From Hymenoscyphus infarciens (taxonomy: Eukaryota; Ascomycota; Leotiomycetes; Helotiales; Helotiaceae), in the NCBI GenBank assembly GCA_001414345.1, contig LLCB01000036.1, positions 1-64,000 on the forward strand: DNA of 64,000 nucleotides, in the 5' to 3' direction. A program made the translations under genes and the position numbers. Below are positions 13,445 to 35,200 of the stretch, piece after piece. Position 1 is the stretch's first letter. Every line of letters begins with the position of its first letter. The notes under the pieces are model-generated. The model did no database searches. It was not told the origin of the DNA and worked only from the letters and a program-made list of their open reading frames with translations.

Positions 13445-13642
13445 ACAGCAGTAGAGCTTCTAAATAAACTTGAAAATTAAGGAGCATTTAAATTGAATCT
13501 AAGGATTAATCTATCTTTATAAACTAGTTAAATTAAAACTCAAAAAGATACAAATCTTAAAACTTTTTATATATCTTAGGTAAGTAGGAAAGTACCTAGA
13601 CTTAAGTTATATAATAAAACTCTATTAATAATAATTAGAAGA
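13445..13642. repeat. AT-rich RIP-like flank
   Basis: CpA/TpG-poor, AT-rich sequence lies left of the small LTR element, with a matching block to its right (14920-15100). This is probably an older repeat into which the LTR element inserted. Nothing coding is visible. Confidence 0.5.
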
Positions 13643-14912
13643 TATAATAACAAGGTAGAAGTAGAGTAGAGAAGTAGTCTATTCGTGGTTATTAACGCGA
13701 AAACTAAAGGTAAAGAGCGAAGAGTAGAGATAGCTCTAAACGATACTAATATATAGGATTCTACTAGGTAGTAAGAGAGTTATATAATAGGTCTAAAACC
13801 GTTATATTTCCCCCTCTTTAGTAGAGCTCGCTCTCGAGCTTTATAGAAACCCGTATACTTATATATCTATATATCTACTAGTCCTAGCCTATACTCTTTC
13901 TTCTACTAAGGTAGTTATAAGATACTAGCTCTAGTAAGATACTAGCTATATACTAAGTTACTTAAAATTCTCTATATTCGCTCTCTAATACTAATTTATA
14001 TAATCTGCTAAGCGACTAGTATATACTTCTATAATTTTGTCAATTACTAAAGTATAAGCTATAAGAGCTTTTATAATATCAGAAGGAGAAGAAGGAGGCT
14101 TTAAGAGTTATTAGAAAATAATATAGCTAAAAGTAAAAAGGTTTACTTAAAAGGCTTCTCTCGTCGAAGCGTAGAGAGGCTCTTTAATAGTAGAAAGCTT
14201 AGATTAAGACTTCTTCTTATTAGTAGAAGACTTGGATTAAGGCTTCTTTTTATTAGTAGAAGGCTTAGATTAAGACTTCTTCTTATTAGTAATAAGCTAG
14301 ATAAGCTATCTTATCGAAGCGTCGATTACGCGAGTGTATTAATATTTCTTTTTAATAAGAGAGCTAAAGTTATATACCTAGCGTACGATATTAGAGTCTA
14401 TTATTAGAGTAGTTAGATACTAGCTATTTAAAGAGAGAGAGAGGAGGTCTATAGACGCTAGAGAGAGAGAGATTCGAAGATACTAGAAGAGAGTTCGAAG
14501 ACACTAGAAGGGAATCCAAAGATACTAGAGAGAGATTAGATACTAGAAGAGAGTCTAATGCTAGAGAGGGGTTAGATACTAGAAGAAGGGGATCCGAAGC
14601 TAGAGAGAGGTCTTAAGCTTAGTATCGATTCAAAAGTCGCTAGTAAGAGGTCTAGGAAGCTGTTTAAAAGAGTTCGTAGAGTCGGCGACAGAGAGGCTGG
14701 AATAGAAGTGAGGTTAAGAAGCCTAATAAGAAGAGTAATCTTTAGTTTAATATAATAATAAGGTAGAAGTAGAGTAGAGAAGTAGTCTATTCGTAGTTAT
14801 TAACGCGAAAACTAAAGGTAAAGAGCGAAGAGCGGAGATAGCTCTGAACGATGCTAATATATAGGATTCTGCTAGGCGGTGAGAGAGTCACGTGACAGGT
14901 CTGAAACCGTCA
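13643..14912 (-). mobile_element. Non-autonomous LTR retrotransposon (TRIM/LARD-like)
   Basis: Two 162-bp direct repeats, 13643-13804 and 14751-14912, differ mainly by C/T and G/A changes. TAGAAGA sits just outside both ends (13636-13642 and 14913-14919), the target-site duplication plus shared bases. Read on the minus strand the LTR begins TGACGGTTTC. A purine tract AAAGAGGGGGAAA abuts the downstream LTR on that strand (13808-13822), which sets the orientation. The 946-bp interior has no gag or pol reading frame, only a 33-bp tandem repeat and a GA-rich minisatellite (about 14440-14600). It is RIP-mutated, more strongly in the left LTR than in the right one. Confidence 0.85.
14192..14290. 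repeat. Three tandem 33-bp repeats
   Basis: Three consecutive 33-bp units (14192-14224, 14225-14257, 14258-14290) lie inside the small LTR element, each starting AGAAG/AGAAA and ending TTATTAGT. They differ by a few transitions. The period is a multiple of three, so they may be the remains of a coding repeat, but no open frame survives. Confidence 0.75.
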
Positions 14913-15108
14913 TAGAAGATAAGTTACTAGTTTAAGCTTATATATAATATAGAGAATTATTAATCCTAGCTGAATAATTTTATATAAATTTCATGAAACG
15001 TTTCATAAAGTTATACTAATAATACTATATAAAATATATTAACTAATAAATATAAGAAATAAATGGTAAATTTAAAGATATTTTTTATATAGTTCATTTG
15101 GTGGGCCT

Positions 15109-16190: not shown

Positions 16191-16195
16191 AGTAC
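16191..16195. other. Left target-site duplication (AGTAC) of the large LTR element
   Basis: AGTAC lies immediately before the 5' LTR and again immediately after the 3' LTR (30003-30007). Five bases is the usual duplication for Ty3/gypsy integration. Confidence 0.9.
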
Positions 16196-16388
16196 TGTTG
16201 TAGGGTGCACCACGTGACTCTTGGCGCTCATAGACGGAGGAACCTATAGATAGCTTCGAGCGCCTTATACTCTCTTCTCTCTTTAGACGTTTTATATACT
16301 ATAATTAATCATATTAAATCTACCTTTCTTTTAAGCCTTAACTAGGGTAAGATAATAAAACTATATTTAATATAACTATTCTATAATA
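16196..16388 (+). repeat. 5' LTR of the large chromovirus
   Basis: 193 bp starting TGTTGTAGGG. It aligns without gaps to 29810-30002, and almost every difference is a C/T or G/A transition. The first 70 or so bases keep CpA and TpG (for example CACCACGTGACTC); the inner half is fully RIP-converted. Confidence 0.92.
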
Positions 16389-16405
16389 TAGTAGTAATAC
16401 TATAA
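16389..16405 (+). other. Candidate primer-binding site
   Basis: TAGTAGTAATACTATAA directly follows the 5' LTR. Allowing for RIP (TGG to TAG, CA to TA), this is compatible with a TGGTAGCAAT-type site complementary to a tRNA 3' end. The tRNA cannot be named. Confidence 0.4.
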
Positions 16406-16750
16406 TTCGATTCTAGATAAGCCTCTATTAAATAACAAACCCTTACGCTTCTGTATACGCTCTATTATATATCTACTAATTCTTACTTCTACTTCTCGCC
16501 TCTATTATAATCTTATACTCGTATACTTAAATCGAATACTAGCCTATACTAGTATAACTCTATATAGAGTATATAACCGTCTCTTAGAAAGCTCGATTAG
16601 TAGTAAGTATAACGTAAAGCACTACTCTCCTATACCTTAATTCGCTCCGCTTTATAGACTATAACCTATATACTAAGAAATAAGAGTATTAAATCTCTTA
16701 GTATTAGAACATACGATAAGAATAGTTAATATCGAATAAATAGTAGATTT

Positions 16751-19250
16751 ATAAAGGCGCTAACTCTACTATTTAAGAGACCTTTACTAAAAGCCTTAGA
16801 AGCCCTAGAAGCACCAGAAGCCTTAGAAGCCTCGAAAGTACTAGAAGTATTAGAAGTCTTAGAAGTCCTAGGTATTATAGTAAGCCTAACACCTCTACTT
16901 ATTATAGAAGCTTAGGATTCAATTCTATCCTCTTTCCTTCGTTGCTCTCGAAGCCTCTTAAATCCTCTACTAGCTTCTTCGTACCTTCCTTAATCTATTA
17001 ACTTAGAAGTAGAAGTGCCTAACCTTAAGACACTCTAGGTAAGAGTAACTACTTATACTACTTAGAAAGGCACTAGAGATAGGACTACTCTCTTTAACTA
17101 ATTAAGACTTAATAACCTAGTCTTTATAATATTTTAAAGTATTCTATTAGTATTACCTTCTCTAGCTTCTCTTATAGCTTTAAATAGCGTACTATCACTA
17201 CTTACTACTAATACCTTTAATAAGAGTACTTTTACTACTTATACCTTTTATTCTAATATTATAACCTCTAAACTAGTAGTAATAATCTAAGCTTTATAAG
17301 ACTTCGAGATAACACCGAACCGAATACTTACTCTTAAAGTTAACCTTTTTACCTTTTCTCTTTCTTAGATTAGTATAAGAAACTCTTTTAGATATATTTA
17401 TAATAAAGTATAATCCTTATACTTTCTTACTCTTTTATACTTAGGTAATAATATATTAAATTAGCTAAGAGAATAAGACTAAAGTAGCTCTTTATAATCG
17501 AGTAATAATATATCGAATTAGTAGAGAAAATAAGACTAAAGTAGCTAGGTACTAGAATAAGAACTATTTAATAATCTATATATATAATACTTATAATAAA
17601 AAGACACTACTTTAATTAGATACGTTATAGTAAAGAATTCTATACTATTAAATAAGTTTCTACTCCTAAATAGCGTAATTACTAATAATAATAAAGAAGA
17701 TACTATAGATACTTTAGATCTAATAGATATTAAGAAACGCTAAGATATAGAAGCTAAAGCGGTTATAAATACTAGAAAGCTAGCCTTATCTATAGCTTTA
17801 TAAGCGGACTTTAAAGTACTCCTAAGTCGCTTTTAAGATAGCCTAATTATTATAGCTCTTACTCCTAGAAATAGTTATTCTCTAGCTAATTAAAACTATT
17901 ATTAAAATAATTCCTAAAAGGACTAATATAAGCTATAAGTACTATACCTTAAAGCCTATAACCTAAAGTATAATAGTACTACGCCGGTTACTTTATAGCT
18001 AAATCAGATAGAAAGCTTTATTTAAAGCTATAATAACTACTAGGTATTAGCTCTCTTACTATAAGCTATAGAGAGAGATACTTAATTATAATATAATAGC
18101 TTATTCCTAGAAGTATACGCTCTACTTTAAAATAACTTTAAAGAATAGAGAGAGCGTATAACTATATACTTCTAGAAGAACCTATTACTATTATTAAAAG
18201 AAGCTAATAGTATAAAGTTTAAATTTAAGAATAAATAGGAATTACTACTAAGAAAATACCTATTTAAAAAGTAAGTTATATATATAGAAGCTAGTAGTAT
18301 AACTAAAGATTAAATAGTTTATCGACTATACTTAGATTTAGACTCTTTCCTCTAAGCTAATATATTACTAAAGTAGTATAATAATACTCTAGATTACTTC
18401 TATACTTAATATTTCTAGTAAAAGTACTTCTTAAGAGCCTTATATAAAACCTAGTAACGATAATTCTAAGTAATAATTAATATATAATTTAAGTTTAAGA
18501 AGACTAAGGTTAAAGAGTAAGAAAAGGAACTTAAGAAGCTTAAGAACTAATAGGATTGCGATTACTACTTATACTAAAATAGTAGCTAGAATAATTAAGA
18601 TAATCGAGATAATCGAATTAATTAAGATAATTAGAATAATTAAGATAATTAAGATTAAGATAATTAAGATAATCGAGATAATTAAGATAATTAAGATAAC
18701 TAAGGAAACTATAAACGACGTTTTCTTAGAGGAAATCAAATAGATAATCGCTACTAAAACGTATAACTAAATCTATATAACTAATTTATACCTATACTAG
18801 GATATTCTTAAGCCTTTAATAGTTAGCCTCTTCCTACTTAGTAGTCTTAGTATATTCCTAGGAGTACGGCCTAATACCTTTAAGATACGCTGCCTTTTAG
18901 ATAATAGTAGTAGCTTTTATAGGTTTTACTAAATATATTAAATAATTAAAAACAGATTACTCTTATAGTTCTAGTATATCTTATAGAAGCTAATAATAAT
19001 AACCTTATTCTTATAGATAAATAGACCTACGCTTAATTCGCTTCTATTTATAAAGTTAATATATTATAAGACTAAGAGAATTAGCTAATTAATCTATATT
19101 CTAATAATAATTTAGAAAACGACTTTAGTAGTCGCTCTAGAGTAGTATATTATCTATAATTTCTTCTATTATAACCTTATTACCTAATATTAATAGTATA
19201 GTATAATAAGATATTTATATATTATTATTACTCTTATTAAGTACTATAAA
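16751..19250 (+). pseudogene. gag region of the chromovirus (RIP-inactivated)
   Basis: One frame stays in phase from about 16751, where an ATA probably stands for a mutated ATG, to about 19.2 kb, broken only by TAA/TAG of RIP type. It begins with an Ala-Leu-Glu-rich repeat (16796-16880). A Gag-like helical region follows (about 17900-18500), then a Cys residue of a damaged zinc knuckle at 18557, and a stretch of DNQ/DNR tripeptide repeats (18590-18710). No capsid function can remain. The 3' limit is approximate because pol runs in a different frame. Confidence 0.65.
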
Positions 19251-22200
19251 GGAGACTAAAAAAACTAAAAACCTAAAAATAATTAAAAAACACGAACCTC
19301 TTACTAAAATAAGCGAAATAGCTAAGATAGTTCCTATTATACCTAATATTATTAATACCTCTATTATTAATAGTTCTATAATTACTCTAATAGATACTCT
19401 AAATAAAGATATTAAGGTATTACTTCTTTTCTTAGTAGCTTTAAATATAACTTTTTTACTATCTTTAATAAACTATAAATTACTCTTAGATAATCTAAAT
19501 AAAGATATATAAGTAAATAGCTTACTAGATAAAATTAACTTCTATAGTAAACTATCTTATACTAATTAACCTAGAAGAAGGCTTAAACCCTTAATAGAGC
19601 TATTAAAGAAGGAGGTTCCTCTAGTAGTTATTAGAAAGCTAACTAGCTTATACTTCGTTAACGATACCTTATATAAGTATTATAGTAGTACTAAGTATAT
19701 AATAAAATCTCCTAGTAGCTACTTAATAGAATTCTACTCTAATACTAGCTTAGGAATTAGTCTAATTAGCTTATAGATTCTTAAGAAATGTTTTTCTAAT
19801 ATTATACTAACTATTAGCCCTAGTACTATAAACTTAAACAAGGTAGAGAAAGGCTCTTTAAGCTAAAACTTCGTTAAATTACTCTTCTACCTATACTCTA
19901 TAAATAGAGTAGTTTTTTCGTTTATAGCTAAAGTATATATTATAGAGAACCTAGGCTATAACATTCTTATTAGCACTAGGTTCTTAAAGCTAAACTATAT
20001 AGATTTCTAATAGTAGAAGAACCTAACTAAGATAGACCGTATTTAATATTATAAATATTAATTTCGTATTATATACCTTAATAACATAGTAAAAGAGCGA
20101 GCTTATATAACTATATATACTATAGAGACTTATATTCTTAAACCTCTTAAAGCTATAAATATACAAGTTAAACACTATATTATACTAGTATATACTTAAG
20201 AGTATCTTATCATACCTTATACTTAAAAAGATATAGTAATTAGCTCTTATAAAAGCCTAGCGTATACTATTACTAATAAGAATAATAAGCTATTAATATA
20301 TATAAACCTTAGAAATACGCCTATTTATATTATTAAAAGCTAAATCCTAGAGTTCTTAGAATAGCTTAAAGAGGCTCCTAGAAAGGACCCTAATTATATA
20401 GTATACCTAAGCTTAACTAACGTTTTTAAAGAACTTCTACCTATATCTAAGTAACCTAAAAGTAAGTAACCTAATAAATAGCCTTATCTAGTAGCTCTTA
20501 TTAAACCTCTTTTCACCGATCCTAACTCTATTAACATCTTAAAGACGAATATATCTAAATATTAAAGAGAAGATTACTAACTTAAAGTAAGTAATATTAT
20601 TTAAAGTAACGCTTTACTATTTTATAGTAAGCTTAGATATTTTAATAATAGAATTAAGATATCTATTAACTTTTAAGATAGTATTAATATTAAGGACCTA
20701 AAGTAAGCCTTTTATAATATATCTTATAGAGATAAGTAAGCTATTAATAGTATTATTAATCCTCTTACTAAGATCAAAGTAGTAGAAAGAGTCCCCTTAG
20801 ATTAGCCTTTATTAGCAGTATTACTAGCCTTTCTTATATAGCGAGATAGTAAACCTTATATAGTAGTTAACTTTTAGAGAGTTAATACTAAGCTCTATAT
20901 AGATATATAGCCTCTACCTTACTAAGATAATATCCTATAAGCGATATATAAGGCTATAATATTCTTAGTACTAGATATAACTAAAAGCTTCTTCTAGTAA
21001 AAGATTAGGTTAAAAGATAGATAGAAAACCACCTTTATTACTCTATACTATAGCTAAGAATAGCTTATAGTTAGTATAATAGATTTAGTAACCTTTCTAT
21101 CCTTCTTTTAATATTATATAGAAAATCTCTTTAGTAATCTATTATAGTAATTTATATACGTTTTTATAGACGATACTATTATCTTTTCGTAGATAAAAGA
21201 GGATTATCTAGTCTACCTTTCCTAAGTCCTTAAGCGACTATATAAATCTAGTATTATCTTATTATTACTAAAATACTATTTCGCTTAGCCTAGACTAAAG
21301 GCCTTAGAGTATTAGGTTACCTACTATAGCTTATATATAGTAGAAGATAAAGTAGAAGCTATTAGAGCTATTAAATAGCCTAATACGCTATTAGACCTTA
21401 AGAGAGGATTAAGTCTTTTTAGATATTACTATAAATTCGTTAGATATTATATAGTAATTACTAATCTACTAAATAAGATTAAGACCCTTAGATTTAAAGA
21501 CTTACCTATTAGTAGAAAGAGTCGTAATATCTATATAAAAAAGAAGCTATATAATTTCCTTAATAATTCTAAGCTATACTAGAAGCTTTTAAAAGAAGAA
21601 TAAGAGATATAAGAGAAGCTAAAAGATAAACTTTACTTAATACCTATCTTAGCGTTCCTTAATTTTTTAAGGCTCTTTATTTTATACGTAGACAGTAGCT
21701 ACGAGATAGGTTATAGCGTTATACTATACTAGAAAAACGACGAAGAGGTTAAGCACTCTATTCTCTTCTTATCTAAATTATTAACCTCTATAGAGGATCG
21801 ATACTAGCCTATAGAGCTCAAGACCGGTATACTTATCTAGGCGCTTAAAAAGCTATCTTAATACCTCGATAGCGCGGATTTTATAGTAATTATAGACTAT
21901 AGTACTATAATAAATACTTTTAAAAACATAGGTCTAGTAAAAGAGAAGTAATTAGTAAGATTAATAAATTAGTAATTGTTCTTATCTAAGTATATAAAGA
22001 ATATAATAATTATTTATTAGACTAGAAAATCGTATATTAATATAGATACTCTTTCTAAGCTCTCTAAGAACTCTCTAGTACTAGAGACTATTAAAATTTA
22101 AACTAGAAAAGCTATTATATTAAGTACTTAGAAATATTATAGACGTAGTACTTCTTACTTTATATACTATTTCTTAGTATAGACTCGATAGACTATATTA

Positions 22201-23760
22201 AAAGTAACCTCTTCTACTATAATTATTTTAAATATAAGATATTCTATAATTAAATCGACTACTCTTATAATAAATAAGGACATTTTAAGAGATATAGCTA
22301 AGGAGATACTCTATAACTATACTTTTAGACTTATATATAGAAAGCTAGCTAAATAATATACAAATACAAAAAGTAGTACTTCTCTTACTACTCTAGAAAG
22401 CTTCTATTTTAACCTTATAAGTAGGCTTCTATTCTTTTAAGATTAAGATAAGAAAAGACTATATATTCCTTAAAAGTATATTAAAGATATTCTTATTACT
22501 ACTTATAATAATAAAGGTTATTTTAGTATAAAGAGAATATATAAATAAGTTAAGGAATATATATTTTTCTCTAAGATATATAGAAGGATTAAGAAGTATA
22601 TTATAACCTATTCTACCTACTAAATAACTAAGCCTTTAAATATCCTACCTTAGAGAAGTCTTTAGTTTATTAAATATCTAATAATACTATTCGTAGTACT
22701 TTCTATAGACTTTATCAACAGTCTACTTATAACTAATAATAGAAATAATAAAATCCTTATAATTATATATAAATATATAAAAGCTATTAAGCTAATAGTA
22801 AGTAAAGACATATATACTATAAAGGACTAGGTAAACCTTTTTTTTAAGAGAGTATATAGTAATTAGAGCTTACTATATTATATTATTTCTAATTAAGACT
22901 TAAAGTTTTAATCTATCTTCTAGAAAAGACTCTTTAAATTATTAAAGACTAGGCTAGCCTTTACTATAATATATTATTTAGTAGTAAATAAATAGGTAGA
23001 AAGAAGTAATTAGATAATAGTATATATATTATACTATACTATTAGTAAAGTATATAATTAGTCTAAATAGAAAGATATTATCTCTTTTATCTAGCTATCT
23101 CTAAATACCTTTATTAACGTATTTATAAAAGTTATACTATTTATAATAATATATAACTATAAAGTAAAGACTAAACTAAGAATAGGTAAAGTAGAATTGG
23201 ATTTTAACTTTATTATATATAGAGCCTAATTACGAAAGTAGGTAAAAGACTTAGTTAAAATAGTATAAGCACGTATAAAGATATACTATAATAAAAAGTA
23301 TATATCTTTTAAATTCAACGATTACGCCTTCCTTTGTATAGCTAAGAGTTATAAGAAAGGCTACTATTTATAAAACTTTATTAAGCTCTTATTTCTAAAA
23401 CTAAGACTATTTAAGATTATTCGCCTTATTAGTAACTTAGTATTTAAACTCGAACTACTCTTATACCTAAAAGCTATTTATTTAGTCATCTTAGTAGAAT
23501 ACCTTAAACTTATAAAGAGTAACCTCTTTAATCGTCTATAGCTTAAACCTAGCTATATTATAGTTAATAGTAAAGAGTAATATATTATTAAAGAAATCCT
23601 AGATAAAGAGATATAAAAGCTAATAAAAGGTCTTATATAGCTATACTTTAGAGTAAAGTAGTTAGAATATAAGGATATAATATAGAAACCTACTTCTATT
23701 ATTTAAAAGTAAGCTACTTTAGTATTTAAAGCCTACTAGGCTAAGAAATAGAGTAGATTA
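19250..23760 (+). pseudogene. pol region of the chromovirus: RT, RNase H, integrase, chromodomain (RIP-inactivated)
   Basis: This lies in one frame, shifted relative to gag, with many TAA/TAG codons at former Gln/Trp positions. The reverse transcriptase active-site motif YVFIDD is encoded at 21157-21174. RNase H begins near 21640 (YVDSSYEIGY at 21685). The integrase core has its first Asp in SIDFIN (22702-22719) and its second in a RIP-altered SDRD-like segment (about 22890). A chromodomain-like segment (YIIKEILDKE) starts at about 23581. That order defines the chromovirus branch of Ty3/gypsy. The limits of the protease region between gag and RT are not clear. Confidence 0.85.
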
Positions 23761-24359
23761 TCCTTATAATATCCTATGAGATATAGTACTCTTTATTAGA
23801 TATTAGTACTAGCTGTTAGAAGGTGTACTTATAACGGTTTCTATAAATTATCCTCTCTAATCTTAAAAGCTATATTTAAGATATAAATTAGAACTAGTTA
23901 TCTATTAATTCTATAGTATTAAACTAACCTATATTTATTTACAACGCCTTAACCGTTCTTAGTAAAGGACTTATAAGGTCCTCTCTAAAGAGTATAGCGT
24001 ATATATACTTTTAAAAATATTAATAAAATATCTTTTTATAATAATTTAATTATAATCCTTATAATATTATATATTCTTTAATCTTAATATCTCTTAATCT
24101 AACTACTTAGTCTTAGATTAGATATTGTCTATTTAATCTTAGATTTAAATATTATCTATTATCTTTACCTTTAATAATAATCTAATTAAACTAAGAGCTC
24201 TTATTAGTTAGCTAACTTGTTATCTACTAAAAACCTTATCTTTAGCCTAACGCCTAAGATAGTAATTATATAACTTTATAAAGTTTAAGCCTTAATATTA
24301 AGATCGTAGATTAAACCTTATAATATCTTCTATCTATCTTATAACTTTTATTCTTTAAT

Positions 24360-27300
24360 CTATTATCTATTAATATAATCTAAATCCCTACTATCTTGTC
24401 TATTAACCTTAGAACTATTAAATAGTATAAAACTATTATTATAATACGTAGTAAGTACCTTAATTATAATATATTTACTAGTTAATAGATTATTAAACGA
24501 AATATTTAGTAACAGCCTAGAACAACTATGTCTAATTAAAGCTAGTAAACGTTATACTAGCTTTAATACTATTATAACCTTTTATAATATAGCTACTAGT
24601 ATAATATCTACTAAGAGCGACAACGCCCTCGACTATATTATAAACGCTAGTAGCTTATTAAGTCTCTTAGTCTTTAAGATCGTATCTATACTTTAAAAGA
24701 ATTAGAAAGTAAATCTCGAAATACTAGCTACTAAACTTATTAAAAAGTCTATTAATAAGTTTAAAGATAATTAGGAAAATTAACTTACTATTACTTTAAA
24801 CAATAAAGGCTTCTTAGTAGCTTTTAGTAAAGTCGAAGCCTAAAGTATTACTATCGTACTTATATAAGAGCTAGTATATCTAATTTATAAATCTTAATCT
24901 TAGCCTAATATTAAATCTTAGCCTAATATCGAGCCTTAGCCTGATATTAAATCTTAGCTTAACTCTAAATCTTAGTCTAACTCTAATTCTTAGCTTAACT
25001 CTAAATCTTAGTCTAACGTTTAGCTTAATAACTCTTTTACTTAAGGTTATATAGACTTAGAAGAATCTTAGCCTTAGCTTAATAACCCTTTTACTTAAGG
25101 TTATATAGACTTATAAGATAAAGCCTAACCTTAGCTTAGTAATACTTTTATATAAGGTAGGGAATACTAACTATAAGCTAAAGAATAACCGGAGTTTGAT
25201 AGTAATAGAAAGCGTATTAAGATACTATAGAGTCGCTTAGATTTCGTACTACTTAAAGAATCTAAGAAATACTAAGATCTTCTTAAATATTATATAGTCT
25301 TAACTATAGTATACTTAGTAAATAGTATATTATATAGCTTACTTTAAGATTATAATCTTACTAATATTAATAGTCTATATACCTCTATTTATTAGATAAA
25401 GATCTACTATATATAAGAAAATATATAATTTACTATATATCTTAAGATAAGTAGTAACTAATATATTAACAAGCTAGATAATAAAGATAAGGTTAACCCT
25501 AGTAGTAAGCCTTAATATATAATTTATACTACTATTAAGGCTACTACTGTCGAAGACCTTTAGATAGAAGATACTACTAAAGATAATCTATTTATTAAAG
25601 TCTTTAAAGTAAAGAATTTTAACTTAGAAAAGAAGCTTATTATATATATAAAGGTTAAAGCCTCTCTTCTTAAGACTAGTAGTAGTTAAGAAATACCTAT
25701 TATATACTAAGCTAGTTATAAGACTAAGATACTTTAATTAGTAAATATCTTATTCTATATAAAGGCTAATAATAAGACTATTACTTTTATATAGGTTATC
25801 TTCTCTATATATAAGGAAGTATAAAAGATTATATAAAAGATCGCTAATAATAAGTAGTTAGATCTATTACTAAGATAGATTAAAGACTTATCTAAAGCTA
25901 GTAATCTTAATATAGGTAATCTATTCTTAGTTGTATAATAGCCTACTCTCTAAGTAAAAGGTAAGTTACTATATTATATTAGAGTATTCTAAGACTAGAT
26001 ATATATATATATTCTACCTATATATACCTTTTTTAACGAATTCTAATTAAATAAGAGTCGTTTTTAAGACTAGGTATAAGATTAATTCGACATATCTATA
26101 TTTAGATTTAAGAGATTATATAGAAAGCTTAGTACTTAGGATTATACTAAGCCTAAAGCTTTTATTACCTTTTTAGACTTAAGAAACTATTTCTACTATA
26201 ATCTTAACAAAGACGAATACCTTATTATATAATTTCTAGACCTTAAGGTAAATAAATATATTAAATACTAGGGACCAAATAAGAAGAAGCTATATAATCT
26301 ATAAGAATAGTTAGACGAGGATATAGATATTAAAGACAAATTACTTAATAATAGAGATAAAGGCCTAGAGAGTAGTAAAACTATTATTAAGCCTAAAGCT
26401 TCTAAGATATATACTATTCTTTAGTATAAGCTTAAAAACATCTTATATACTCTTACTAAAATAGTTATTAAATTCCTAAGAGCTTTATTAAGTACACTTC
26501 CTCTCCTTCTTACTATAAGAAAGAATAGATATTAGAGAGGACTACTTAGAACTAAAGTGTTTATTAATATTAATATTCTTACTAACGAATTATATCTAGA
26601 AGCTCTTAATATTATAGAGTATAATAACTAGATTAAGTATAAAGTTATAGTAATATTAAAGATAACTAACTAGCTTTTAAAGGATATAGTCTACTATATT
26701 AATTTTAGGCGACTAGTAAATATAAAAAACATTACTTTATAATATATACTAGCCTTTATTCTTATACTATTTATTAACTTTAATAATTCCCTTTATTTTA
26801 AGCTTTTAAATTTTTAGAAGGACTATTATAAACGTTTCTTTATAGACTTATTTATCTAGTATATTATTTATAGCTTCTTATCTAACTACTTAGTAAATTT
26901 TAAGTCTTATAAGAATACTATCTCTTTTATCCTAATTTAAGAGAGCGTTACTACTTATAAGACTGATTATATAGGTTATATAATTATTATAGTATATACT
27001 AATCTAAATAAAAAGAAGCGCGCTCTTCTTACTTATCCTACTAATATAAGAACTAACGAATTAGCTAAAAAGATAGTAGCTTTATTTAAGAAATTTAGAT
27101 TAGATAAGATAGTTATTTATATTAGTAGTCTTAGGATTAAGAAATTAAAATTCCTTATATACTATATTCTAAAGAATTTTATATTTATTATTAAGCTATA
27201 AAATAAGGTAGTATAGGATAATCCTTATAATAATACTAGAAATAAGAATAAAGATAATAAGAGTAGAAATATAACTATAATTATTAGATATATATTCTAA

Positions 27301-29780
27301 GAGCTACTTTATAATATAGCTATAAATATAGATAATAATAAATAATAAGGTAATAAGAGATTTAAGATATATATATATATTTATACCTTAGCTTTTTATA
27401 TAATTAAGAAGATCTACGACTACTTTAACAACTTTAAATATTACTAGCTAGACTACTTTATAATAGAGCTTAAATTAAATCTAAATAACCTAGAGCTTAA
27501 CCTAGCTACTATAAAGCTAGTAATTAAGAGAATCGTTTATAAGATATACTATAACACTAATATCCTTATTACTACTCTAGCCTTAGCTTTATAGACTTAG
27601 GTAGTTAAAGCTATTAGTCTAATTTATGTTTTTAAGAATAATAAAAGCAGCTTAAGAGACCTAGCTATTATATTAGCTCTTATATTAATTTATAAATACA
27701 AGATTTTTATTAATAATAGTAATAAAAAGCAAGGTAAGCCTTTTATTTAGTTAAAAGATAATAAGGCTATCTAGAATCCTCTCTCTTTACTTCTTAGTTT
27801 AACTATACTAAGTCGAGCTATTTATAGTAAAATCTCTACTATATATCTAATATATTCTTATTACTACTAAACCTCTCTTACTATCTAGTTTTTAAGTTAG
27901 TAATACTATAATAGTATACTTATTAATATTATAAAAGACTATAGATAATTATTTAATAACTTGTTTACCTAAAAGCTAAATAAGAAAGTCTTTAGAAATA
28001 GTAGCTAATTTCTTATAGTTATTATTTAGAGAGTATAGTCTAATATTAAAGAATATAGCTATAGTATTTATAACGAAGTATATATAGATAAAGTATACTA
28101 TTATACAAAGGCTATTACTAGCTTATAATATTTTATAAAGCTAGAGAATCGATATAAATTTACAGCTCTTAGCAAATATAAGACTAAGGTAAACGCTTTC
28201 ACAATTAAAACCGACTAATTAAAGGATCTGAATTATATCTTATATATAATCGAAACTATATAAGGTAATACCTACTCTTTTATTATTTTAGACTTCTTAA
28301 GTACTATATCTCTTTCTTTATAAGTAAGTAGCCTAGAACGTTTATTAGTTACTCTTATATACTATATATATAGTTTAGTAATCCTTATTAGTAACTATGT
28401 TTTCGACTCTACTAGGTATAGCTATAGTAAAAAGGATACTAGATTATTAATAGACTATAAGGTAGTCGAAGAGCTTTATAGCCTATACTACTATACTCGA
28501 GACTAAGGTTATATAGTAGAATAATAGGCTTCTATAGTAAAGGTATATCTAAATTATAGAGAGTATAGTTATAGGAAATCAGAATATCTAAACGATCTAG
28601 TCTTTAAATATAAATTATACTTAGAGTTAAGATATAAGAAACATAACTACTTAAATAAGCTCTTAAAGGATTCTAAGAGCTATAACCTTTTTAGTTAGAG
28701 ATATTATAAATACTAATCTTACTTTTACCTTTATAAAGAATTCTTAAATAGTTACTTATAATATAGATATAAGGTATATAATTAGTAATATTATAAGTAT
28801 TATTACTATAATAAATATACTTAAATAGAATATAACTTCTTAGTATATATAGCTAATGTTATTTATAAGACTTATAGTAGTCTATATCGAGTATAGGATT
28901 ATATAGTATTTAAAGAACTTGTTAGGAAATCTATATAATAAGTCTTATAAATAAGAGAAGTTAAAGAATTACTATAATTACTAGCTAAGAACGAGGTAGT
29001 AATAGAGGTAGTAATATATAAGCTATAATAGGATATAATTAAGTTACCTCTATAATAAGTAGTTAATTATCTTATAAAGTATATAGATATTACTTTAGTA
29101 GTTCTAAATTACCTAGTATTAAGTTTATATATAATACTTATAATCGAGGACGATGTCTTTATAGTATATACTTCTTTAAAAGTATTAGAAAACGTTTATC
29201 CTCTCTTTATAACTAATAGAATAGAATACGTAATTAAGCTTCCTTAAAACTAATATACTATAGGATAGCGATAGGAGGTAAACGGTTAAAAATTTAAGTC
29301 CTTTATTATTATAAACCTTCTAAATAACTATAAGATTCCTTACTTCTTAGCTATCGACTTCGCTAAGTAGAAGTACTTAATAATTATAAAGATTTATAAG
29401 ATCGAGTAAGAATATAAGTATTAGGAGAATACTAGTAACAATTAGGTATCTAAGCTTAATAATAATCTAAAGGATAATTATATAACTAGAAAAGACGTTA
29501 CTTATAATAATTAATCTAATTATTAATTCTAAGACAATTAGTAATCCTAGGATAGTAAATAATCTAAGCATTAGTCGTAAGACGATTAATCTTCTTAAAA
29601 CAATAACATCGCTTACGTTGATTCTGTTCTTAGAATACTAAGAGGCTTTATAAAGAAGGAAGAGGAAGCTCTAAAGAGTACTATAATAAGAAAGATAAAA
29701 GGATTAAAGAAGAGCTTATTTAAGCCCTCTTCCTAGTAGTAAGTTAAGAAAGGAAGGATTAAAGGTAAATTATTTCACTC
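24360..29780 (+). pseudogene. Extra reading frame: UPF1-like superfamily 1 helicase (RIP-inactivated)
   Basis: A single frame of about 1,800 codons keeps phase from roughly 24.36 kb to the polypurine tract; its stops are nearly all TAA or TAG, the expected RIP products of CAA, CAG and TGG. An N-terminal part holds 18-bp repeats encoding SQPNIK-like hexapeptides (24895-25020). From 26920 it follows the order of an UPF1-type SF1 helicase: a Walker A-like site (26935-26964, TYKT in place of GTGKT), a motif Ia-like YPTNIRTNELAKKI (27034-27075), a segment like GDxxQL in spacing and setting (about 27700-27735), QQYYNSILIN (about 27900), motif V TIQG (28255-28266) followed by FIILDF, and a motif VI-like LLVTLIYYIYSLVILISN (28342-28395). 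Mutation has altered key residues, so this assignment rests on motif order and spacing. It sits inside the LTRs, after the chromodomain. Confidence 0.62.
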
Positions 29781-29798
29781 CTAGGAAGGAACGTTTTT

Positions 29799-29807
29799 AA
29801 GAGGGGG
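29799..29807 (+). other. Polypurine tract
   Basis: AAGAGGGGG lies two bases before the 3' LTR. It is the expected primer for plus-strand DNA synthesis and confirms the element's orientation. The small LTR element at 13643-14912 has a closely similar tract on the minus strand. Confidence 0.8.
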
Positions 29808-29809
29808 TA

Positions 29810-30002
29810 TATTATAGAGTATACTACGTAACTCTTAGCGCTTATAGACAGAGGAACTTATAGATAGCTTTAAGCATCTTATACTCTCTTCTCTCTTTAG
29901 ACGTTTTACATATTATAATTAATTATATTAAATCTACCTTTCTTTTAAGCCTCGACTAGGGTAAGATAACGAAACTACGTTTGATACAACCATCCTATGA
30001 TA
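29810..30002 (+). repeat. 3' LTR of the large chromovirus
   Basis: 193 bp matching the 5' LTR without gaps. Here the last 45 or so bases keep CpA and TpG, while the first half is RIP-converted, the mirror image of the 5' LTR. It is followed by the AGTAC target duplication (30003-30007). Confidence 0.92.
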
Positions 30003-30007
30003 AGTAC

Positions 30008-32214: not shown

Positions 32215-35200
32215 ATGGCGTCCCACGAGCCAAACGAAAAGATGGGCTTTCAACCGGAAAGAACTGAAAACATTCTGACCGGCGATTCTCATCCTGGATA
32301 TTCACAAGGAGAAATCGAGCAAAGACCGCAACCTTCCGAGTCCTCGATGTCCGGGTCAGAAAGAAAGGAGCATTTAGAACGGACAGAAACCTATTCCTCG
32401 CAACGATCCCAACGAGAGCAACATTTCGAGCCCATTGCCAATGGCGACCGGGCAGAGTTACAGAGGATTGCTTCAGAATTTGGAGGGTCAGTTGCATTGG
32501 CAAGGACGCGAACGAATGCATCGCAATCTCTGGAGCGGACGGATACACTTGCTGGTATAGAAATTGGTCATCCGGCATTGGACCCATCGTCACCGGAATT
32601 TGATGTTTATAAATGGGTTCGAATGTAAGTTCTGACTAGGAATAATTTTGTTGGGCAGTTGCTGATTGTCTAACCTACCAGGTTAATGAAACTCACGGAC
32701 GAAAAAAATGTCGTCCAAAGACGTGCTGGCATTATTTGGAAGAACATGAAAGTATGTGGTTCTGGCTCAGCGATCAACCTTCAAAAGACTATGGGTGATA
32801 TATTTCTCGCCCCATTCAGAATTGGCGATGCTTTTGGAAAAAGTCCGGAAAAGACGATCTTGAATTATTTTGATGGCGTTCTCAAGAGTGGTGAGATGCT
32901 GGTGGTACTAGGCCGACCTGGTAGTGGTTGTTCGACTCTCCTTAAGTCGTTATCAGGCGAACTCAACGGTCTCGATATAAAAGACCAATCTACAATTCAT
33001 TATAACGGTCAGTCAATTTTATCCCGGTTTCAATATCCATCACTAATATGTGCGATAGGTATAACACAAAAGCAAATGCTCAAACAGTTCAGAGGAGAGA
33101 TTGTTTACAACCAGGAAGTCGATAAGCATTTTCCCCATTTAACGGTTGGAGAGACCCTCGAATTCGCAGCCCGAGTCCGTACACCACAGCAACGAGTTGT
33201 CGATGGCTACGACCGGGAGAGTTGGGCGAAGCATATGGCACAGGTTGTTATGGCAACCTTTGGTCTCTCGCATACTTACAACACCAAAGTGGGCAATGAC
33301 TTCATCCGAGGTGTTTCTGGTGGTGAGAGAAAGCGTGTTAGTATCGCGGAGATGGCCCTCGCGGGATCACCAATCGCTTCTTGGGATAATTCTACCAGAG
33401 GTCTGGATGCTGCGACTGCGTTGGAATTTACCAAATCGCTTAGGATGACTGCCAATGTCGGCGGAACAGTTCAACTTGTCGCTATTTACCAGGCATCGCA
33501 AGCTATCTACGACCTATTCGACAAGGCAGTTATTCTTTATGAAGGACGACAAATTTATTTTGGTCCAGCCAACGAAGCCAAGCAATACTTTGTGGATATG
33601 GGATGGGAGTGTCCTCCTCGACAAACGACTGGCGATTTCTTGACTTCTGTGACGAACCCGGCGGAACGCACAGCAAGACCTGGATTTGAAGGGAAACTCC
33701 CACGTACGGCAGAGGATTTTGAAAGATACTGGAAGGCATCGTTGCATTACAAATTATTGCAGCAAGAAATCACAGAGCACGAAGCCGAATTCCCCCTAGG
33801 AGGTGGCAGTACCCTCGAACAATTTCAAGAATCGAGAAAAGGAATGCAAGCCAACCATGTTCGAGCCGAGTCGCCATATACTATCAGCATACCGATGCAG
33901 GTAAGGTATTGTACAAGACGAGCATATCAACGTCTTTGGTAAGACATTCATAGCCATCTTTCCATGCAAATTACTTACTCTAAAATAGGAACGATCGAAC
34001 ATCAACAGTCACAACCCTTTTCAGTCAAATGGTATTGGCCCTGGTCATCGGCTCCATTTTCTACGGTACTCCAAACAACACAAGCGCCTTCTTTCAAAAG
34101 GGAGGTGTGATATTCTTCGCCGTCTTGCTAAACGCTCTCATCGCCCTCTCGGAAGTAAACACACTCTATTCTCAAAGACCAATTGTGGAAAAGCAAGCTT
34201 CATACGCATTCTACCATCCTTTCGCCGAAGCTTTAGCAGGTGTCGTCGCAGATATTCCAATCAAACTCTTAATCGCTACTGGTTTCAACGTCATTCTTTA
34301 CTTTCTTGCTGGACTTAGACGAGAACCTTCTCAGTTCTTTATCTTCTTCTTGTTCAATTTCATGGCTAGTCTTACGATGAGCCAGATTTATCGAAGTATT
34401 GCTGCGAGTACGAGGGCGGTAACACAGGCTCTTGCGCTTGCCGGGTTTGCCACCTTGGCGATTGTTATTTATACTGGCTATGTTGTGCCACGGCCACTTG
34501 TGAGGCCTGTGAGTTGTTATCCAAAGTATTTGGGAAATAAATGAGCTAACTGGTTCTAGTGGTTTAAATGGATTAGTTGGATCAATCCCGTCGCTTATGC
34601 ATTTGAAGGCTTGTTTGTCAATGAACTCCACGGACAACGGTTTGACTGCTCACAATTAGTCCCATCAGGTATGATGAAACCATTTTTCAAGCAATAGAAA
34701 TATACTGATTTGAATAGGCGGCGGGTATGTCCTCCAAGGCAACACTTTCATCTGCAGTGTCCCCGGTGCAGTCGCCGGACAAACCACCGTCTCAGGCGAC
34801 GATTACCTGATGGCCGCATACCAATACTCATACACCCACATATGGCGAAATCTCGGATTCATGTTTGCTTTTATGATTTTCTTCCATTTCGTTTACCTCG
34901 CTGCTACAGAATTCATCTCCGAATCGGGAAGCTCAGCCGAGGTTCTTCTTTTCAGACGTGGACACGTTCCGAAATATCTCGAGAAGGCCCTAAAGGACGA
35001 GGAGTCGAATGCAAATTCCATCATACAAAGCGTTACCAAGGATGAGGCGGAACAAAATGAAGCTCAAAGGATTCGAACTCTGGCACCTCAGACCGAGGTC
35101 TTCTCGTGGAAGGACGTGAATTACGACATCAAGATCAAGGGGACCCCACGAAAGCTTCTAGACAATGTCTCTGGATGGGTAAAACCCGGTACACTTACAG

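Follow-up and report, generated by a model that had tools for sequence, protein, structure and literature searches.

The stretch of DNA analysed here (the window) comprises positions 1 to 64,000 of contig LLCB01000036.1 from the helotialean fungus Hymenoscyphus infarciens (assembly GCA_001414345.1; 65.6 Mb in 742 contigs). It holds a single long terminal repeat (LTR) element of approximately 13.8 kb, located at positions 16196–30002, which bears a third open reading frame (ORF3) downstream of pol with the motif order of UPF1-like helicases of superfamily 1 (SF1). The LTRs, of 193 bp at the 5' end (16196–16388) and 195 bp at the 3' end (29808–30002), are flanked in this copy by the perfect 5-bp target duplication reported in the original prediction, AGTAC being found at 16191–16195 on the left and at 30003–30007 on the right. 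The LTRs and all internal features described below lie on the plus strand. The two LTRs show 29 differences, every one a transition, and the interior of the element is saturated with repeat-induced point mutation (RIP): its GC content is 0.24, against approximately 0.45 in the flanks, and its (CpA+TpG)/(ApC+GpT) ratio is 0.10, against 1.1–1.2 outside.

ORF3 extends from 24361 to 29778 (frame bounds, without a placed start codon). Its 1,806 codons bear out the claim, made from the letters alone, of a frame of about 1,800 codons kept over 5.4 kb with stops of RIP type. These stops number 132 (76 TAA, 56 TAG and no TGA), which is the set expected when Gln and Trp codons undergo C-to-T changes, and all scored copies of this third gene are broken by RIP. 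When the window is compared with eight other copies over 25786–29040, C/T or G/A changes make up 2,177 of the 2,307 differences, fewer differences fall on codon position 2 (543) than on the other positions (853 and 911), and six of eight indels are multiples of three. No depletion of codon position 2 is found in 23751–24360, the stretch of approximately 600 nt between pol and ORF3, which holds no coding signal; pol and ORF3 thus look like separate frames. ORF3 aligns at near full length as one tblastn piece in 6 of the 14 loci fetched from the family of the window element.

This family, F1, has a sister family in the same genome, F2, with approximately 34% identity in ORF3 and 55% in the part from reverse transcriptase to RNase H. 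Between both families the nucleotide identity of ORF3 is approximately 0.53, 0.63, and 0.43 at the three codon positions (three F2 copies), as under coding constraint, a pattern that the underlying protein-based alignment itself favours. A low-complexity repeat segment of ORF3, at approximately 24901–25160, has a counterpart at a like place in F2. One F2 copy, on contig C32, holds pol and then the helicase frame inside its own LTR pair of approximately 198 bp, measuring about 14.3 kb end to end, while only the 3' LTR was found for another on C558; no target duplication has been established for F2.

The position of ORF3 was surveyed through a pol search that scored 47 of 156 candidates, a sample outside which more distant pol families lacking the frame would lie, and through an F1 LTR search that scored 40 of 101 candidates and listed 41 LTR matches. 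ORF3 follows pol on the same strand in 13 of 14 scored F1 pol copies and 28 of 29 scored F2 ones (41/43), and in 33 of these 41 it lies 3.0–3.2 kb away. Three helicase copies were found without a scored pol. Sixteen F1 LTR matches have a neighbouring match on the same strand; 11 of these pairs are spaced 13.5–24.3 kb, all enclosing ORF3, whereas the other five are spaced 1.2–1.4 kb (three) or more than 100 kb (two). Seven of the ORF3-enclosing pairs fall within 13.56–13.69 kb and four within 16–24 kb. The latter elements, at C337, C261, C251, and C739, probably hold further insertions. One F2 helicase copy (C1:126433–134096) is split into three pieces of 86, 74, and 55% identity, versus 84–89% in other copies; two of the three are clearly more divergent, and perhaps reflect an older insertion.

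These data bear on whether nesting of another element, or an insertion by chance, could account for the helicase-like frame within one LTR pair. Insertions do occur in F1, as the four long LTR pairs indicate, and two scored pol copies without ORF3 downstream (C125:9382 and C1:719738) count against an established gene. On the other side stand the linkage of ORF3 to pol in nearly every scored copy, at a mostly constant distance, its presence in two families with only a third of its residues identical, and the lack of any F1 LTR pair spaced 5–13 kb among the 41 matches listed. Pol linkage and LTR spacing rule out nesting among the scored copies, leaving it a barely conceivable explanation overall. 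Family members lacking the region while it stands alone elsewhere, the situation named beforehand as fatal to the claim, did not appear among the scored copies. The original prediction had left open whether the frame was a captured gene or an established one. Because two sister families hold it at the same place, it is an established gene in this genome rather than a captured fragment, and the element probably already carried it when F1 and F2 diverged.

The assignment of ORF3 to the helicases relies on RIP-aware motif blocks, which were built from cellular helicases of the UPF1/Sen1/Dna2 type only, so that the comparison covers cellular profiles. Blocks I, Ia, II, III, IV, V, and VI match ORF3 in order and with UPF1-like spacing, supporting the proposed UPF1-like helicase frame after pol and a chromodomain-like segment within one LTR pair. 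Motif I (Walker A) is placed at 26917–27003, motif Ia, the YPTNIRTNELAKKI block singled out from the sequence beforehand, at 27013–27081, motif III, in a GDxxQL setting, at 27694–27747, and motif IV, in a YRM...FY setting, at 27838–27918, where copy L027 reads YRY. Motif V lies at 28231–28308 and motif VI at 28315–28404, with its Arg kept in copies L030 and L031. Motif II (Walker B) is weak: F1 and F2 together place it at 27616–27684 (rank 29), the window alone sets it one residue earlier (rank 24), the F1 rows alone put it elsewhere, and F2 reads D/N-K-A/T-S. No particular cellular subfamily was singled out as nearest to ORF3.

Several results weigh against this assignment and would fit an artefact of AT-rich, tyrosine- and isoleucine-rich RIPed sequence. 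Plain Pfam, NCBIfam, and PDB searches with the RIPed ORF3 returned nothing significant, single-pair RIP-aware alignments are not significant, and F2 alone matches the blocks weakly. Protein-database searches scored 7,995 and 7,990 candidates, none of them passing, and AlphaFold modelled the aligned helicase core with a pLDDT of 28. The check proposed by the original prediction, a search with the AAA_11 and AAA_12 profiles, failed to give a match above the curated cut-off: the best AAA_11 E values were 0.037 (one of 15 members) and 0.048 (one of six pieces), and AAA_12 gave none. Taken literally, the lack of a helicase profile hit with plain Pfam is one of the outcomes that the original prediction had named as refuting it. 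The same Pfam library finds the RNase H of this element, yet misses what by eye resembles its reverse transcriptase, integrase core, and chromodomain, so profile searches of this kind have low power when the sequence is RIPed. Contrary to an artefact, scores are at chance level for the incorrect frames of this DNA and for the equally RIPed pol, known helicases subjected to simulated RIP score like ORF3 or higher, and the differences between copies keep the motif Arg in some of them. A chance likeness of AT-rich sequence is rejected on these controls, and an artefact of RIPed sequence is rated as highly improbable.

The helicase could instead have been taken from an RNA virus of the alphavirus-like type. 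Thr-Arg-His is the motif VI of viral helicases, and motif VI of F2 reads T-stop-H/Y, which is compatible with it; passages in two papers on insect elements provide a precedent for such a capture (PMC5563155, PMC6338049). Nevertheless, blocks drawn from cellular helicases alone match in order and with like spacing, and by eye motifs Ia and IV resemble the cellular ones, making a viral source unlikely.

The predicted order and spacing of a UPF1-type helicase hold from motif I to motif VI, but the canonical Gly of Walker A does not. Among the 15 aligned helicase copies (11 F1 rows and 4 F2 rows), none conforms to GxxxxGK[ST]: the Gly position before the Lys is occupied by Tyr (codon TAT) in 15/15. 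The Lys itself is kept in all of them, followed by Thr in the 11 F1 rows and by Ile in the four F2 rows. Since a C-to-T change cannot turn a Gly codon into TAT, the P-loop was already unusual before RIP, provided that the alignment is right at this point.

Behind motif VI, ORF3 holds five spacings of the CCHC type (Cx2Cx4Hx4C), some of them overlapping, whose columns coincide between the window and F2 copy L036. They include putative zinc knuckles at 28546–28587, 28609–28650, and 28753–28794, with more overlapping matches up to 28848. Five shared-column spacings compare with 0.16 expected, and none of 5,000 shuffles reached this number, in a region picked after the pattern had been seen. The ligand columns mostly read Tyr, a RIP product of Cys and His codons that may also be native here. 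Cys is retained in two of the 11 F1 rows at column 921, in three at column 934, and in one at column 955, and His in one at column 950.

The remaining frames place the element among Ty3/gypsy-type chromovirus-like elements. Pol (approximately 18880–23760) is supported by conservation against F2 and by Pfam, with a reverse transcriptase recognised by eye only, an RNase H-like domain at 21595–21993 (PF17919 and PF17917; E 3e-12 and 9e-12), and an integrase H2C2 zinc-binding segment at 22465–22620 (PF17921; E 0.0086, under the Pfam cut-off). The Ty3 order of RNase H followed by integrase is found in the window and in 4/4 F1 copies, with RNase H above the Pfam cut-off and PF17921 under it in the four copies (E 0.00012 to 0.0093); a scan of a single F2 piece for both domains gave no match. 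For the chromodomain claimed to precede the helicase frame, a chromodomain-like segment is seen by eye near 23578–23710, with an agreeing pattern in F1 and F2, although no Pfam match was obtained in any of five pieces, one of which was cut in the wrong frame.

Upstream of pol lies a tentative gag-like frame, at approximately 16676–18751, which matches F2 at 26–28% identity (tblastn E 6e-30 to copy L052 and 1e-22 to L051). The choice of frame is not certain, as a second frame over part of the stretch also matches F2 (E 1e-15, versus 6e-30). No clear zinc knuckle was seen in this frame, nor any array comparable to the knuckle spacings of ORF3. In place of a knuckle, its end (18500–18740) bears a long Asn/Asp run alternating with stops and Arg, the look expected of a RIPed Arg-Gly repeat. 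Outside the element, a direct repeat of 165 bp lies upstream in a moderately AT-rich stretch (13642–13806 and 14750–14914; 90% identity, 1.1 kb spacing), and an intact frame of 418 residues (32686–33942), whose P-loop resembles by eye that of PDR-type ABC transporters, is located 2.7 kb downstream.

Taken together, the element is best explained as a Ty3/gypsy-type chromovirus-like LTR element with an established third gene after pol, encoding a UPF1-like SF1 core with CCHC knuckles, which most likely protects or remodels the ribonucleoprotein (RNP) of the element itself; this explanation is considered a likely one. The presence of such a gene in two families suggests that they hold a tool of their own for handling element RNA. 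As an SF1 motor and predicted RNA-binding knuckles are encoded on the gag/pol RNA, the ORF3 protein would most likely act on that RNA. It would sit on the long genomic RNA, with the knuckles as anchor, and remodel or protect the genomic RNP, keeping the 13.8-kb multi-frame transcript from host RNA surveillance, either nonsense-mediated decay (NMD) or RNA interference (RNAi). Alternatively, it would keep the genomic RNA accessible during packaging and reverse transcription. What the sequences show is that the gene is present, where it lies, that it is conserved in both families, and the order of its motifs; that it binds RNA, is active, and benefits the element is predicted.

Two pressures could have favoured such a gene. 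First, UPF1-driven decay would naturally act on a long RNA that holds several frames, and retroviruses are known to steer this decay (PMC4693258, PMC4764554). Second, fungal silencing has helicases of its own, among them the UPF1-like SF1 helicases SAD-3 and Hrr1. The action of both in fungal silencing is described in PMC5384783, and this also lends some plausibility to an ATPase-dead decoy, in which ORF3 would clamp RNA or host partners and exert a dominant-negative effect on helicases of NMD or RNAi of the UPF1 or SAD-3/Hrr1 type. Such a clamp or decoy may lack normal ATP turnover, to judge from the altered Walker A, whose Tyr is common to both families and could not have arisen from Gly by RIP. 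However, F1 and F2 both retain at least motifs Ia, IV, and VI, which might exceed the needs of a simple clamp, and loss of the Walker A Gly may be tolerated; the decoy is rated as rather unlikely.

The main rival to RNP protection is that the helicase serves reverse transcription directly, unwinding RNA structure or displacing strands on an unusually long template. The length of the element and the location of ORF3 beside pol in the genomic RNA speak for it, and like proposals for insect elements appear in PMC6338049. Against this, most chromoviruses are known to manage without a helicase, and this role is held to be possible with about the same reserve as the decoy. A broader and still tentative proposal, slightly less doubtful than either, is that of a distinct helicase-bearing chromovirus lineage in filamentous fungi, where nucleocapsid-type knuckles would have moved from Gag to a UPF1-like helicase, perhaps without normal ATP turnover, and where the element's own version of a host surveillance motor would shield or steer its genomic RNA.

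If a UPF1-like helicase was retained through the split of F1 and F2, coping with RNA surveillance or remodelling RNA would evidently repay an element for giving over more than one third of its length. The element also offers an example from nature in which to ask whether retroelements of fungi turn copied host machinery against NMD or RNAi. The approach also shows how heavily RIPed frames can be tested for homology where ordinary profiles fail. Gains of enzymes in addition to gag and pol are rare among LTR retrotransposons. In the titles and opening abstract lines of the open-licence papers listed, no fungal LTR element with a UPF1-like helicase was named, and the word helicase is absent from the main text of a 2011 survey of fungal LTR elements (PMC3248453).

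Compared with known systems, the element shares with Ty3/gypsy chromoviruses the LTRs, the 5-bp duplication, a gag-like frame, RNase H before integrase, and, by eye, a chromodomain-like end. It differs in its length of about 13.8 kb and in the third frame, 1,806 codons long, that follows pol; the usual chromoviruses are far shorter and are not known to have such a frame. With cellular UPF1-like SF1B helicases (UPF1, Sen1, and Dna2, as well as SAD-3/Hrr1), ORF3 has in common the order and spacing of motifs from Walker A to motif VI; unlike them, it resides inside a retrotransposon, holds CCHC knuckles after motif VI, and shows an altered Walker A. Helitrons, which are DNA rolling-circle elements with a Pif1-type SF1 helicase, are likewise transposable elements bearing an SF1 helicase, whereas the element described here has LTRs and pol instead. 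A parallel in kind, a retroelement that gained and kept an SF1 helicase, comes from insects, where SF1 helicases derived from viruses occur in LINEs (long interspersed nuclear elements) such as TRAS and Jockey and in some LTR elements (PMC5563155, PMC6338049). Those helicases are of the RNA-virus type and, where LTR elements have them, are found within element proteins, while the present one is UPF1-like and is encoded by a separate downstream frame of a fungal Ty3/gypsy element.
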